IMG/VR virus record: IMGVR_UViG_3300017742_000005 | Coordinates: 1-62,070 of that record | Direction: 5' to 3' (one strand) | Origin: a virus | DNA: 62,070 bases | Shown: positions 56,176 to 61,297 of the stretch, in pieces | Position numbering within the stretch: the stretch's first letter is position 1 | How the letters are laid out: every line of letters starts with the position of its first letter | Notes under the pieces: model-generated | Seen by the model: the letters and a program-made list of their open reading frames with translations, nothing else | What the model was told of the DNA's origin: nothing | Databases searched by the model: none | Translations under genes and position numbers: made by a program

Positions 56176-56646
56176 ATGACAATCTTTAAAGTAGTAAATG
56201 AAACTGATGGAAAAGTTTATGTAGGTTATTCAGTTAATGATAATCCTAATAACTTAGGAGCAGGTAAATATATTAAAAGAGCAGTTAAAGACTTTGGTAC
56301 AAGATCTTTTCAAAAAACTGTTCTTGAAGAATTTGAATCTGAAGAATCATTAAGCCATATAATGGAAAGGCTAGAATTTTGGATAAAAAATTATAAAGCC
56401 GATAATCCTAAATATGGATATAATGAAAGCGTACAAGAATTAATTCCACAAAAAAAGAGACTTACTAAAAAACTACAAGTTCTCTTAACACCAGAAGATG
56501 AAGATAATTTAAATTCAATTATTATCGAGAAATCAATGGAAAATAAAACAAAACCGTTGCCAGTATCCAAATACGTAAGACAATTAATAGTTGAACATAT
56601 AGTAGAGGAAACCGCTCCTGAAAAACAATTAATAAAAACTAAATAA
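56176..56646 (+). CDS. GIY-YIG-like protein with ribbon-helix-helix-like tail
   Basis: A 156-residue protein. TIFKVVNETDGKVYVGYSVN at the start resembles the GIY-YIG core, although the GIY part reads IFK, and ERLEFWIKNYK...YGYN follows the Glu/Asn end of the domain. A residue pattern like a small DNA-binding ribbon-helix-helix lies at 95-145 (LQVLLTPEDEDNLNSIII then VSKYVRQLIVEHI). Free-standing GIY-YIG genes in T4-like phages are homing endonucleases. It sits alone between the tube terminator and the gp26-like gene, a typical insertion spot. Confidence 0.55.
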   Translation: MTIFKVVNETDGKVYVGYSVNDNPNNLGAGKYIKRAVKDFGTRSFQKTVLEEFESEESLSHIMERLEFWIKNYKADNPKYGYNESVQELIPQKKRLTKKLQVLLTPEDEDNLNSIIIEKSMENKTKPLPVSKYVRQLIVEHIVEETAPEKQLIKTK

Positions 56647-56648
56647 TT

Positions 56649-57653
56649 ATGAGTAGTCACGAAGACAATATTAAAAAAGAATTTGCAGAGGCTGAAGGTA
56701 TAGTAGATACTACGGCTGAGGTAAAAACAAATGATGAAGGTAAAGTTACTGAATTAGGTAAAGTAGATACTACAAGAGGATCTGGTATAACTTCTATAGA
56801 TGATCCTGAAATTCAGAGAATACAATCTTTAACAGGTTATATTAAATTAGATTTAGCTAACTTTCCATCAGGTGGTCAATTTTATAGAGAAGATTTTGAA
56901 ATTCATATTAGAGCCGCAAGGGTTGGTGAGATTAGGGAATTCTCTACATTAGATGAAGAAAACATTTTAGATGTTGATGAAAAGCTAAACTCACTTCTAG
57001 TGAACTGTACAAAAATTATGTATGGTAACCAAAGAGGATCTTATAGAGATGTTTTAGAAGAGGATAGAATATATCTAATCCTATCTATTAGAGAGTTAAC
57101 ATTTAAGGAAGGCGAAAATAAATTAATGATGCCGGTTGGTAAAAAGAGTTGTAAAACAGGAACTTGTAAATCACAAGAATCAGTGGAACTTCAAACAGCT
57201 AATCTTCAATTTAATGAACAAGATGATTTAATAGCAAAATATTATGATCATGAAAATAAATGTTTTACCGTACCAACAAAAAGCCACGGTGAATTAACCA
57301 TAGCACCTCCTACGATTGGTGTTATGCGATCTATTACTGATTGGATACGAAAGAGAGAAGAAGAAGGAAAGACTTGGGATAGATCATCATTATCTATCTT
57401 ACCTTACATTCAGAGAGAATGGAGAGGATTTAATGATAAAGAAATATTTTCAGCCATTACAAATTTTCAGGGCTGGGACGCTACTAAATTTTCAATTGTA
57501 TACAGATTAGTTGAGAAAGCGAAAATTGGAGTTAAACCTGAGTTTAGTTTTCCATGTGAAAGTTGCGGTGAGGAGGTCGCCGTCCCGCTCACGTTTCCCG
57601 GCGGCATCAAAGCTCTGTTTATTATTCAAGATATCTCTTCTGAACTTTTATAA
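56649..57653 (+). CDS. 26: baseplate hub/tail assembly chaperone gp26-like
   Basis: A 334-residue protein. LANFPSGGQFYREDFEIHIR and AARVGEIREFSTLD fit the T4 base-plate (gp26) family, and FPCESCGEEVAVPLTFPGGI near the C-terminus carries a CxxC. It lies two bases after the GIY-YIG-like gene and just upstream of the gp51-like region and the tape measure, as tail chaperones do in many phages. Its last 80 bases contain a GC-rich island quite unlike the rest of the gene. A longer product through frameshifting into the next frame is possible. Confidence 0.6.
   Translation: MSSHEDNIKKEFAEAEGIVDTTAEVKTNDEGKVTELGKVDTTRGSGITSIDDPEIQRIQSLTGYIKLDLANFPSGGQFYREDFEIHIRAARVGEIREFSTLDEENILDVDEKLNSLLVNCTKIMYGNQRGSYRDVLEEDRIYLILSIRELTFKEGENKLMMPVGKKSCKTGTCKSQESVELQTANLQFNEQDDLIAKYYDHENKCFTVPTKSHGELTIAPPTIGVMRSITDWIRKREEEGKTWDRSSLSILPYIQREWRGFNDKEIFSAITNFQGWDATKFSIVYRLVEKAKIGVKPEFSFPCESCGEEVAVPLTFPGGIKALFIIQDISSELL
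57568..57605 (+). promoter_or_regulatory. GC-rich RNA element: AGGAGG, hairpin and possible pseudoknot
   Basis: GTCGCCG (57576-57582) pairs with CGGCGGC (57599-57605), seven pairs with one wobble and a 16-base loop. CTCAC in the loop (57588-57592) can pair with GTGAG (57568-57572), an H-type pseudoknot. AGGAGG lies at 57571-57576. The local GC content is about three-quarters, unlike the AT-rich surroundings. Confidence 0.5.
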
Positions 57654-57903
57654 GATTAGAGTTTTATTATTAGAAAAGTTGCATCTCCAGCCATCAGAGC
57701 TGGATTTGCTTCCTTTCTATGAGTATGAATATACCTTAGAAATTTACAATGATCTATTAAAAGATCGTAATGATGAAGAGAAACAGAATACTCAATCCTA
57801 TTCGGATAAATATAATACGGACAGCATGTCTAGATCTATGAACAAACAGATGAGTTCTTTTAAAGCACCATCTATGCCTAAGATTAGTATGCCGAAGTTT
57901 TAA
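57601..57903 (+). CDS. 51: gp51-like tail assembly chaperone partner, in +1 frame relative to gp26
   Basis: The frame is open from within gp26 to TAA at 57903. The well-formed part, NFYKIRVLLLEKLHLQPSEL then LLPFYEYEYTLEIYNDLLKD, resembles the gp51-type domain of T4-like phages, and a low-complexity tail (MSRSMNKQMSSFKAPSMPKI) ends it. There is no ATG between 57511 and 57825 in this frame. Translation may come from +1 frameshift in gp26, for example at the CCC of 57597-57599 (giving the start used here), or from a non-ATG start such as ATT at 57655 or TTG at 57679. Confidence 0.55.
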   Translation, partial: AASKLCLLFKISLLNFYKIRVLLLEKLHLQPSELDLLPFYEYEYTLEIYNDLLKDRNDEEKQNTQSYSDKYNTDSMSRSMNKQMSSFKAPSMPKISMPKF

Positions 57904-57919
57904 TAAATAAATAGATTGA

Positions 57920-60900
57920 ATGGCTGCTGTAACTCTTAAAGATTTAATGGATCCTCTGTCAAAGATAGAGGCTGCTGCAAAAGAGACTAATGAAAAATTA
58001 GATGCTCTTATTGCAGTTTCTGGAGGCGGTAATTCCGGTGGTAGTTTAGATGCTGCCATAGTGGCTCAATTAACAGCACAAACAGATTTATTAACTGCTA
58101 TTGAAGCAAATACATCCAGAAATCCTTTAGGAGGAATATTTAGTAGAAAAGGTGGTGCTGCTAAGAAAAGTAATGCTGGTGCTACTTTAAATGATTTAGG
58201 TATTGGTGCAAAGTTAACAGCTAAGGCAATAATGTTGTGGCTATTAGTACCGAAGAAAGCATTGGAGAAATTTAAAGGTTTTGTAGCAGATACACTTGAT
58301 TCATTTGAAAAAGTTAAACCTAAAAAAGTAAAGGCTGGGGCTGATGCTCTTGCTGTTGCTTCTGGTGCTGCAATGATATCTGCAAAAGCATTAATGGTTT
58401 GGACGTTTGTACCTGAATCGGCTATAGATAAATTTACAGCTTATATAACAAAATTAGATAAAGCTTTATCTAAGACCACACCTAAAAAGGCTAAGAAAGG
58501 TGCGGAAACTTTAGGCTTAATGGGCGATGCACTTTTAAAATTTGCAAAAGGATTAGCTTTATCTGCAATATTAGTTCCATTAGGTTTAATAGCAATACCG
58601 TTCTTATTATTGGCTGTGACTGCTGTTGGTGGTATTATGGCTTTACTAGGTGGTAAGAAAATGGGCCAACGAATTAGGAGAGGCGCAAGAGCTTTAGATA
58701 AAGTAGGTGATGCTCTAACATCCTTTGCAATAGGACTAGGTTTATTTGCTTTATCTACTATGTTTATTATAACTCAACCAAATATCTTAATAGGTATGGT
58801 AGCTTCACTAATATTAGTACCAGGTGCAATTGCAATATTAGGTGGTAAGAAAATGGCTAAGAGAGTTAGGAGAGGTTCATTAGGTTTACTAATCTTAGGT
58901 GTAGCATTAATACCTTTTTCTATAGGTATGTTAGCATTATCATACGCAACGAGAGGTAATGGTATTGGAGACATTCTTCTACAAGGTGCTACAATATTAG
59001 CAATAGGTGGAGCTGCTGCATTAGTTGGTAAGATGGGTATGAAGAATATTTTGTTTGGTGCTGCCGCGATGGCGTTAAACGGTTTAGGACTTTTAGTATT
59101 TAGTTTAGGTTATACTCCGTTTGCTGATGCAACTAGAGGTAACACTTTAGAAGATGTAGGCGTACAGGCATTAACACTTGTAGCTATTGGTGGAATTATG
59201 GCATTAGCTGGATTGGCAGTTGCTGCCACTGGAGGTACTGCTTTATTAGGTCCTCTTATGTTTGCTGCCGCAGGTTTAGCATTACAAGAATTGGCACCAG
59301 GTTTACAGATGATGAAAAAGATAGACTTTACCAAAACCGATGCTGAAAACTTATCCTTTACATTAGGTGCAGTAGCTGCTGCATTCTCAGGTGTAGAACC
59401 TGAAGCAGGATTCTTAAAGAATGTTGGTAATGTATTTAGTAGAATAGGGCAGAGTATTGCCGGAGGTGGAGCCGCTGCAATGTATATAGGTGCAGGAAAG
59501 GCGTTACAAGAATTATCAAAAGGTTTAAAAGATTTTAAAGAAATTGACTTTACACAAGAAGATTCAGAAGATCTTGCTGTCGCATTAGGTTCTGTTAGTG
59601 CTGCCTTTGCTCAAGCTGGTGGAGAACCATCAAGCCCAGGTGGTTTATTCGGATTGGTATTTGGATCTACGTTTAGCCCTAATGCAACTGAAAGAGGAGT
59701 TAAATCGGTAATGAGATCAGGTGATGCACTTACCGAAATTACAAAAGGGCTCCATTCCTTTATGAAACTACAAGAAAAGGGTGCTAAGTTTGGTGAACCT
59801 GATAGTGATGGACATTATGAAGAAGGTACTTTAGGTTATGCAATTACAAATACTGTAGGATTTATTAGAACGGCGTTTGCCGCAGTTGCTGGAGAAGGTA
59901 ATGTTCAGGCAGGTGGATTCTTTAATACTCTATTTGGAATTAAAAAGAATAAAGTAGCAGAAGGTATTGATTCAGTTAGAGGAGTTGGTAAAAACTTAGA
60001 TGATATTGCCAATAGTGTAATGAAATTCCAAACAATGATAGAAAAAGGTATTAAGTTTGGAGAACCTGATGGTGATGGAAATTATGAAGAAGGTACCCTA
60101 GGTTATGCAATTGTAAATACTATAGGATTTATTCGTACTGCTTTTGCTGCCGTTGCTGATGAAGGTAATGTTGAGGCAGGTGGATTCTTTAATTCCTTAT
60201 TTGGTGTTAAAAAGAATAAAGTAGCGGAAGGTGTTGATTCAGTTAGAGGAGTTGGTAAAGATTTAGATTCAATTGCTGATGGTTTACTTAAATTTATTGG
60301 ATTTACGAAAGATAATATTGATTTTGGTCCAGAAGGTGATTTAGCCAAAGCAGTTGTAGGTTCAATAACATTTATAAGCGATGCATTTGCTGCAGTCGCA
60401 GGTGAGGAAACTGAGGATAGTGCATTATTTGGTCTAATTACATGGAATGAAAATAATGTAGAAAAAGGTGTTTCGGCTGTAAAGGGTGTAGGTAAAGATT
60501 TGGAAGGTATTGCTAACGGATTAGAAACTTTCCAAAAGATGGTAAAAGATAAAGTTGATTTTAAACCAAAGGGAGAATTGGCTAATGCAGTTAAAAATAC
60601 TTTAACTTTTGTTGGTGATGCGTTTGCTGCAATTGGTTCAAATGAAACAACTGACTCTGCAATGTTTGGTTTAATTTCATGGGATGAGAATAATGTAGAA
60701 AAAGGAATTAAAGCAGTAAAAGGCGCAGGTAAGGAACTATCAGGTATTGCTAAAGGTGTAGCTACATTTGCCGGCGTTAAGAACCCTGCCCAAGTAGCAA
60801 AAGGTATAGGTACATTATTTAATAGTATTGCTGATGCGTTTACAAAGAATTATATAGACATTGCAATGATGAGACCTGCAATGAATCATTTCTCTGGTTG

Positions 60901-61297
60901 GATTACTGATTTAGCAGATGCTGCAGATGATGGATCATTAAATAAAGCTGGAACAGATTTAGAAAAAATTGCTGCAGCTATTAATTCTGTTGATCCTTTT
61001 AAGGCTGAAGCAATGGCCGGATTATTCAGTGGTGCCGGTGAACTTGGTGAAAATAGAAGAGCATATCAAACCCTAGCAAGAGCAGTAGAGGATATTCGAG
61101 ATTTACTATCAGAAACGAGTGGAGGCGGTGAAGCTGCAACAACTGAAGGCGGGGCTCCTGCTGCCGGAGGATCAAGTAAGAGTAGTAATAATAATGCTGC
61201 AATGGTAAGACTTAATAGTACTCTTAGCCGACTTAATTCTACAATGAGTTCGTTACCTGCATCAATTCAATCAATTAAAATCATAGTAGAAGATTAA
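57920..61297 (+). CDS. 29: tail tape measure protein (gp29-like)
   Basis: A 1125-residue protein. The N-terminal 80 residues are helical; about 200-440 contain many Gly/Ala/Leu hydrophobic segments (LVPLGLIAIPFLLLAVTAVG, LILGVALIPFSIGMLALSYA). Four related 79-89-residue repeats containing G-x-IKFGEPDGDGNYEEGTLG and VKGVGKDLEGIA follow, then a Ser/Gly/Ala linker and a short C-terminal helix. Length determination and channel formation are the family roles. It is preceded by the gp26/gp51 chaperone genes, as for lambda G/T and H. Confidence 0.8.
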   Translation: MAAVTLKDLMDPLSKIEAAAKETNEKLDALIAVSGGGNSGGSLDAAIVAQLTAQTDLLTAIEANTSRNPLGGIFSRKGGAAKKSNAGATLNDLGIGAKLTAKAIMLWLLVPKKALEKFKGFVADTLDSFEKVKPKKVKAGADALAVASGAAMISAKALMVWTFVPESAIDKFTAYITKLDKALSKTTPKKAKKGAETLGLMGDALLKFAKGLALSAILVPLGLIAIPFLLLAVTAVGGIMALLGGKKMGQRIRRGARALDKVGDALTSFAIGLGLFALSTMFIITQPNILIGMVASLILVPGAIAILGGKKMAKRVRRGSLGLLILGVALIPFSIGMLALSYATRGNGIGDILLQGATILAIGGAAALVGKMGMKNILFGAAAMALNGLGLLVFSLGYTPFADATRGNTLEDVGVQALTLVAIGGIMALAGLAVAATGGTALLGPLMFAAAGLALQELAPGLQMMKKIDFTKTDAENLSFTLGAVAAAFSGVEPEAGFLKNVGNVFSRIGQSIAGGGAAAMYIGAGKALQELSKGLKDFKEIDFTQEDSEDLAVALGSVSAAFAQAGGEPSSPGGLFGLVFGSTFSPNATERGVKSVMRSGDALTEITKGLHSFMKLQEKGAKFGEPDSDGHYEEGTLGYAITNTVGFIRTAFAAVAGEGNVQAGGFFNTLFGIKKNKVAEGIDSVRGVGKNLDDIANSVMKFQTMIEKGIKFGEPDGDGNYEEGTLGYAIVNTIGFIRTAFAAVADEGNVEAGGFFNSLFGVKKNKVAEGVDSVRGVGKDLDSIADGLLKFIGFTKDNIDFGPEGDLAKAVVGSITFISDAFAAVAGEETEDSALFGLITWNENNVEKGVSAVKGVGKDLEGIANGLETFQKMVKDKVDFKPKGELANAVKNTLTFVGDAFAAIGSNETTDSAMFGLISWDENNVEKGIKAVKGAGKELSGIAKGVATFAGVKNPAQVAKGIGTLFNSIADAFTKNYIDIAMMRPAMNHFSGWITDLADAADDGSLNKAGTDLEKIAAAINSVDPFKAEAMAGLFSGAGELGENRRAYQTLARAVEDIRDLLSETSGGGEAATTEGGAPAAGGSSKSSNNNAAMVRLNSTLSRLNSTMSSLPASIQSIKIIVED
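59786..60790 (+). repeat. tandem 79-89-residue repeats in the tape measure
   Basis: The units begin at about 59786, 60053, 60320 and 60557. The first two spacings are exactly 267 bases (89 codons) and the third 237 (79 codons). The first two units are very similar at the DNA level (AAGTTTGGTGAACC / AAGTTTGGAGAACC), so expansion by unequal crossover is plausible. Confidence 0.8.

Follow-up and report, generated by a model that had tools for sequence, protein, structure and literature searches.

A conserved overlap of gp26-like and gp51-like reading frames suggests programmed +1 frameshifting in a phage tail assembly chaperone gene

The window analyzed here is the whole 62,070-nt stretch of the IMG/VR virus record IMGVR_UViG_3300017742_000005, from a marine phage. 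It contains a gp26-like gene that is preceded on its 5′ side by genes for terminase, sheath and tail tube and by a short ORF, and that is overlapped by a second reading frame in the +1 register (Table 1). The short ORF (56176-56646), situated between the tail tube and gp26 genes, shows similarity to GIY-YIG homing endonucleases (PHROG 314, E 1.4e-9). The +1 frame is open from 57511 to 57903, with its stop codon at 57901-57903, and its first ATG occurs at 57826, within the low-complexity C-terminal tail, in agreement with the initial annotation, which described a gp51-like frame overlapping gp26 and lacking an ATG for most of its length; the frame has no usable start. The 1125-aa ORF that follows begins 16 nt beyond the +1 stop, and its assignment as a tape measure gene derives from a weak match to a tail protein. 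The comparison of the locus with lambda G/GT is apt. The abrupt GC island reported at the junction was located at 57561-57612, where the GC content reaches 0.69, the highest of any 48-nt stretch in the window (mean over the 62 kb, 0.32). The hexamer AGGAGG, which had been said to be absent elsewhere, occurs nine times on the plus strand of the window; what is unusual instead is the presence of GGAGG inside gp26 genes.

Table 1. Features of the gp26/gp51-like junction in the window
Feature	Position	Strand	Basis or remark
gp26-like gene, predicted short tail assembly chaperone	56649..57653	+	ORF; 0-frame product of 334 aa, ending ...SSELL*
Hairpin 5′ arm, GCGGTGA	57565..57571	+	Fold, covariation
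Hairpin loop GGAGG, Shine-Dalgarno-like	57572..57576	+	Kept in 44/49 clade A and 39/46 clade B representatives
Hairpin 3′ arm, TCGCCGT	57577..57583	+	10 nt before the slip codon; fold, covariation
Candidate slip site, TTT CCC G	57594..57600	+	P-site UUU to UUC (or CCC to CCG), then next codon in the +1 frame
Extension in the +1 frame: C-terminal domain of gp51 type, with tail	57595..57903	+	Predicted fusion product of 417 aa
TAA stop of gp26, bypassed by the +1 frame	57651..57653	+	Sequence
Large ORF, 1125 aa, probable tape measure protein	57920..61297	+	Weak match to PHROG 788 'tail protein' (E 6.5e-4); position

In phage T4, gp26 and gp51 both belong to PF12322, and gp51 is full-length with an extra C-terminal stretch. 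The gp26-like protein of the window scored 16.7 bits against PF12322 (E 0.006), below the cut-off of 24.5 bits, and the L001 protein, whose gene is 49% identical to that of the window, scored 29.2 bits, above the cut-off. The window protein also matched PHROG 36717 (E 5e-26) and PHROG 150, baseplate hub (E 1.5e-4), and a Foldseek search with an AF2 model of the 0-frame product (pLDDT 77) returned baseplate hub assembly proteins of T4-like phages, with E values of about 1e-7 to 1e-5. The +1 domain was matched to PHROG 634, 'baseplate hub assembly catalyst', in two relatives only, L097 (E 1.6e-4) and L001 (E 8e-4), at the position where T4 gp51 continues after its core; the gp51 match of the window +1 domain itself is weak. 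In hhalign comparisons, a profile of the fusion aligned with T4 gp51 to the last residue at moderate significance (Prob 42%, E 2.6e-4), compared with a Prob of 9% for the core alone, and the +1 domain alone gave no significant match to gp51 C-termini. Since both T4 proteins belong to PF12322 and the extension corresponds to PHROG 634, the unshifted product would be of the gp26 type and the fusion of the gp51 type. The PHROG 634 matches and the full-length comparison thus support the proposed fusion of gp26 to a gp51-like C-terminal domain, and the short and long products are predicted to be gp26-type and gp51-type tail assembly chaperones, a role that in this phage is suggested by family membership.

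Relatives were drawn from IMG/VR and from phage records, which gave 257 loci with a readable stop and 128 distinct junctions. Clade A comprises relatives of 65-100% identity, plus others at ~50%, and clade B, of the huge-phage type, has ~30% identity to the window gene; the set also takes in PAU, the Tenacibaculum phages pT24 and PTm1, Flavobacterium phage MaF61, Chryseobacterium phage MA9V and the Prevotella Lak phages. In Lak-type phages (L090, L091, L259), TAG was translated as Gln (code 15) when reading the +1 frame; Lak-B has a TAG within this frame. The +1 frame was found to be open across the gp26 stop in all 128 distinct junctions and to reach well upstream of the stop in 127 of them, the overlap being kept even between proteins of 22-30% identity. 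Beyond the gp26 stop it continues for at least 157 nt in every complete case, compared with a median of 38 nt for the remaining frame. Between the slip site (see below) and the stop, the frequency of third-position differences falls to 0.26 in clade A and 0.07 in clade B, from 0.45 and 0.47 in the gene body, and where two sequences share a residue in the last ten to twenty gp26 codons, they also share the codon in 0.88-0.95 of cases, compared with an expected 0.45-0.55. Such a collapse of synonymous change between slip and stop is as expected if both frames code, and the conservation of the overlap exceeds chance.

A TTT followed by C is present at the aligned place in 123 of 125 distinct junctions, 57-63 nt before the gp26 stop. 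The heptamer begins TTTCCC in 114 of the 125 (59 TTTCCCG, 54 TTTCCCA and 1 TTTCCCT), and the few other variants are TTTCCTG, TTTCAAG, TTTCCAG, TTTCGAG and TTTCTCA. CCC follows TTT in all 46 clade B and in 43 of 49 clade A representatives (89/95), whereas it makes up 1-2% of the proline codons of the same genes. The +1 frame is closed by a stop shortly before TTTC in L001, L078, L092, L101, L163 and others, and in 11 junctions it opens within 6 nt of the slip; the stops mean that the two frames must be joined at or after the slip in those relatives.

The initial annotation placed the slip on the proline codon, CCC-G at 57597-57600, as in Listeria phage PSA. This sequence is indeed there and CCC is the usual next codon, so that the prevalence of TTTCCC is compatible with a CCC-N slip; L093, which has UAC CCC A at this place, offers CCC-A without UUU-C, and in the window the two routes yield an identical peptide. 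However, the nearly invariant element is UUU-C: TTT-C is kept without CCC in L001 and the Lak phages (CAA, giving TTT CAA G as the Lak slip), in L099-type relatives (CCT), and in L163 (CCA), MaF61 (CGA) and L259 (CTC, giving TTT CTC A). The retention of TTT-C where CCC is lost identifies UUU-C as the shared element and CCC as a frequent, probably slow, A-site codon. On this pattern of conservation, slippage on UUU-C is favored with good confidence, and slippage on CCC-N is considered unlikely. A second option named earlier, CTT-T at 57645-57648, is present in the window, but unlike UUU-C it is not conserved in distant relatives, being lost in PAU, pT24 and the huge phages, and the dual constraint on the overlap is already evident upstream of it; it was rejected.

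The 7-bp hairpin of the initial annotation was confirmed on the 5′ side of the slip site, with GCGGUGA paired to UCGCCGU around the GGAGG loop. GGAGG occupies the loop slot in 83 of 95 representatives, 17 nt upstream of the slip, compared with 0.25/0.08 occurrences per kb elsewhere in the gp26 genes. When the hairpin was compared with synonymous recodings of the same peptide, its fold energy gave median p values of 0.04 in clade A and 0.02 in clade B, versus 0.45 and 0.56 for control windows in the same test. The clade B hairpin has six pairs, is 98% paired, and shows seven double changes, all at one U-A/C-G pair; that of clade A is 96% and 89% paired in its two registers. Because most pairs are invariant, the evidence from covariation alone is modest, and it is added to by changes of pairing register between lineages in which the stem, usually of six or more pairs, is kept. 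Comparison across relatives thus revealed conserved pairing, with compensatory changes and shifted registers. MaF61 (CUUCC-AAGGAGG-GGAAG) and pT24 have an unrelated stem around a GGAGG loop. The hairpin is not universal, as it is weak or missing in the Lak phages, L001, L093, PTm1 and L259.

The pseudoknot that had been suggested was not borne out: folding 3′ of the slip did not exceed that of shuffled sequence in either clade (mean z about 0), and a 3′ pseudoknot or 3′ hairpin was rejected as the stimulator. The 5′ hairpin with its GGAGG loop is instead a likely stimulator, as judged from its conservation. A second possible hairpin, CCGCU/GGCGG, with the slip in its loop, can be drawn at 57586-57605 in the window, in much of clade A and in Lak; in the Lak phages, where the 5′ hairpin is missing, CCGC/GCGG flank the slip instead. 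A hairpin of this kind is absent in clade B and was rejected as the common element.

It might be argued that two genes simply overlap at the junction, or that the assembly is wrong there, and that the GC island merely codes for a zinc-finger-like gp26 tail. The CxxC-E-V-FPGG motif encoded there is indeed a conserved protein feature of gp26. However, the same motif is coded by AT-rich codons in L097, so the protein has no need of GC-rich ones. The codons GAG, GTC, CCC and ATC are rare in the gene body and fixed at the junction, whereas those from the loop to the slip vary freely in clade B, and the arrangement recurs in 257 loci on independent contigs. This explanation is already contradicted by the data and is regarded as very improbable.

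In a more serious alternative, reinitiation or coupled initiation at an ATG or a non-AUG codon close to the gp26 stop would yield the gp51-like domain as a protein of its own. Separate synthesis is seen in L097/L098 (about 2400-2815), the only contigs without the overlap among the 128 distinct junctions: gp26 ends, and a separate ATG-started ORF encodes MKAVAGISVDKKSILSMFKINLENFFKAKLALYYHL... In these contigs, SILSMFKINLENFFKAKL corresponds to the segment that elsewhere lies upstream of and across the gp26 stop. Since it is encoded there from an ATG outside gp26, the overlapped segment is real protein, and the gp51-like C-terminal domain can exist as a separate chain. A relative with an ATG-started gp51 and no GC island, the case that the initial annotation had set against frameshifting, therefore exists, but in one lineage only. 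In that lineage the frame link, the hairpin, GAG-GTC and CCC are lost together and the FPGGIK motif of gp26 stays; this joint loss fits secondary decoupling rather than an absence of frameshifting elsewhere.

Possible starts also occur in other relatives. ATGs lie at the gp26 stop in PAU and MaF61, overlapping the stop in the latter, and clade B relatives have ATGs in the +1 frame 9-10 codons ahead of it; reinitiation would be possible in all of these. Gene-caller output for PAU, pT24 and MaF61 includes small separate genes. In PAU (L083, 3380-3400), TAAGGAGCGTATGATG is found right at or after the stop, and this phage could use both frameshifting and reinitiation. Against separate synthesis as the general solution, there is no ATG, GTG or TTG in the +1 frame between the slip and five codons past the stop in 51 of 125 distinct junctions, and the group shares no start position. 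This reading also leaves unexplained the near-invariant TTT-C, the CCC of 89/95 representatives, the hairpin at fixed spacing, and the disappearance of all these signals in the one lineage with a proper start. Separate synthesis is accordingly rated improbable. Internal initiation directed by GGAGG was rejected as well: the window has no +1-frame start codon at the right distance, and +1 stops come after GGAGG in L001, L078 and L092.

The best-supported reading, on sequence comparison, is that proposed in the initial annotation: the locus is very probably decoded by programmed +1 frameshifting, to give gp26 alone and a gp26-gp51 fusion. Most ribosomes would terminate at the gp26 stop and so produce the short chaperone. 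In the others, with UUU (57594-57596) in the P site and the rare CCC in the A site, the 5′ hairpin with its Shine-Dalgarno (SD)-like GGAGG loop would refold behind the ribosome and favor a forward shift of one base, in which the Phe tRNA moves from UUU to UUC. The shifted ribosome would then read the +1 frame to 57900, and the resulting fusion, with its gp51-type C-terminal domain, would be the long chaperone. The two forms may act on the tape measure protein and the tail tube, as lambda gpG and gpGT do.

How the hairpin might act can be considered in light of published work. In vitro, a refolding hairpin placed upstream was shown to promote +1 shifts by 70S ribosomes, mimicking an SD duplex (PMC6321510). 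The classical SD spacing for +1 shifts is 3 nt (PMC5009743), so that 17 nt would be an unusual distance for an ordinary SD effect. The anti-SD is hidden in Bacteroidia ribosomes, yet 72% of the Bacteroidia examined carry an SD-dependent prfB +1 site (PMC8710568). In MA9V (L084, 3150-3300) there is no GGAGG, AGCGAGACAG lies between UGGU/ACCA arms, and the slip site is uncertain. The host family of this phage has an altered anti-SD, UCUCA (PMC8710568), to which the GAGA of MA9V might be a matched change, in this single case. No further relatives from Chryseobacterium or Tenacibaculum phages were found in a search for co-variation with the host anti-SD. A tentative proposal, given somewhat less than an even chance, is that phages of Bacteroidota possess a new, natural class of +1 stimulator, in which an SD-like GGAGG is held in a hairpin loop 10 nt behind the slip and acts by refolding alone or by contact of the loop with the anti-SD, and that the chaperone pair has also been switched between -1, +1 and two-gene solutions.

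A search of the literature, covering only a minority of subscription papers, found no earlier description of the +1 arrangement; what is put forward as new here is the direction of the shift (+1), its UUU-C site and the 5′ hairpin. Vladimirov, Gautam and Davidson (2022, Virology 566:9, as relayed in PMC10885494 and PMC12846349) have already named a short and a long tail assembly chaperone in T4-like phages, with two genes in some, and poly-T -1 signals in T4-like phages are mentioned in PMC12846349. As the chaperone identity and the -1 version appear from these accounts to be at least partly published, they are not claimed as new. The proposed frameshift would explain a hidden protein that is either missing from present annotations or truncated in them, across a large group of phages from marine, freshwater and gut habitats, Lak phages among them, and would tie it to the T4 chaperone pair. 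One protein pair would then be realized in three ways, by two genes, by a -1 shift and by a +1 shift, and how frameshift direction evolves would become open to testing. The hairpin would also represent a naturally conserved upstream +1 signal, of a mechanism that the literature consulted describes for engineered constructs; most known hosts of these phages are Bacteroidota, in which SD pairing is seldom used.

The proposed arrangement can be compared with several known systems. T4 gp26 and gp51 are likewise a short and a long form of the PF12322 family, the long one carrying the gp51 C-terminal extension, but they are encoded by two separate, divergently transcribed genes, in contrast to the one gene with a predicted +1 frameshift described here. 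In the cyanophages and KVP40-type phages, gp51 is annotated as a stub, and a frame change that bypasses the gp26 stop appears to link the same two domains. Among 83 cyanophage loci with 55 distinct junctions (L267-L349), gp26 ends with NNT TTT TTC NNN stop in all 55, and the -1 frame remains open for another 173-194 nt, which encode the gp51 domain. In several junctions this frame opens precisely at the heptamer, and in most an SD-like GAGGG lies about 9 nt upstream of it. Cyanophage and vibriophage gp51 was reported to lack the first about 200 residues (Sullivan et al., PMC3037559). What is annotated as a short gp51 in cyanophages is probably the C-terminal part of a -1 fusion. The -1 arrangement was also found, with GAT TTT TTC or GAT TTT TTT, in the T4-like phages phi-pp2, Ps15, LG08 and pf16 (L350-L353; KVP40-type vibriophage, Stenotrophomonas, Rhizobium and Pseudomonas pf16). 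The cyanophage signal is a canonical -1 U UUU UUY heptamer that ends 3 nt before the stop, whereas the candidate described here is a +1 UUU-C situated 57-63 nt before the stop and preceded by a 5′ hairpin.

Lambda gpG/gpGT and P2 E/E′ resemble the present pair in having a short chaperone and a frameshifted long one just before the tape measure gene, but their shift is -1. No similarity to lambda-type chaperones was found, the HK97 chaperone appearing in Foldseek only at E 8.4. Listeria phage PSA uses +1 shifts on a proline codon in structural genes (capsid and tail shaft); the genes are different, and the stimulator is a 3′ pseudoknot or a stop codon rather than a 5′ hairpin (PMC5009743). The prfB (RF2) gene shares a +1 slip aided by an upstream SD-like element; there, CUU-U precedes UGA and the SD lies 3 nt upstream, whereas UUU-C precedes a sense codon here and GGAGG lies 17 nt upstream in a loop. 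The synthetic refolding hairpins (PMC6321510) are also located 5′ of the slip and stimulate +1 shifts on 70S ribosomes; those hairpins were engineered, whereas the one described here is apparently natural and conserved.
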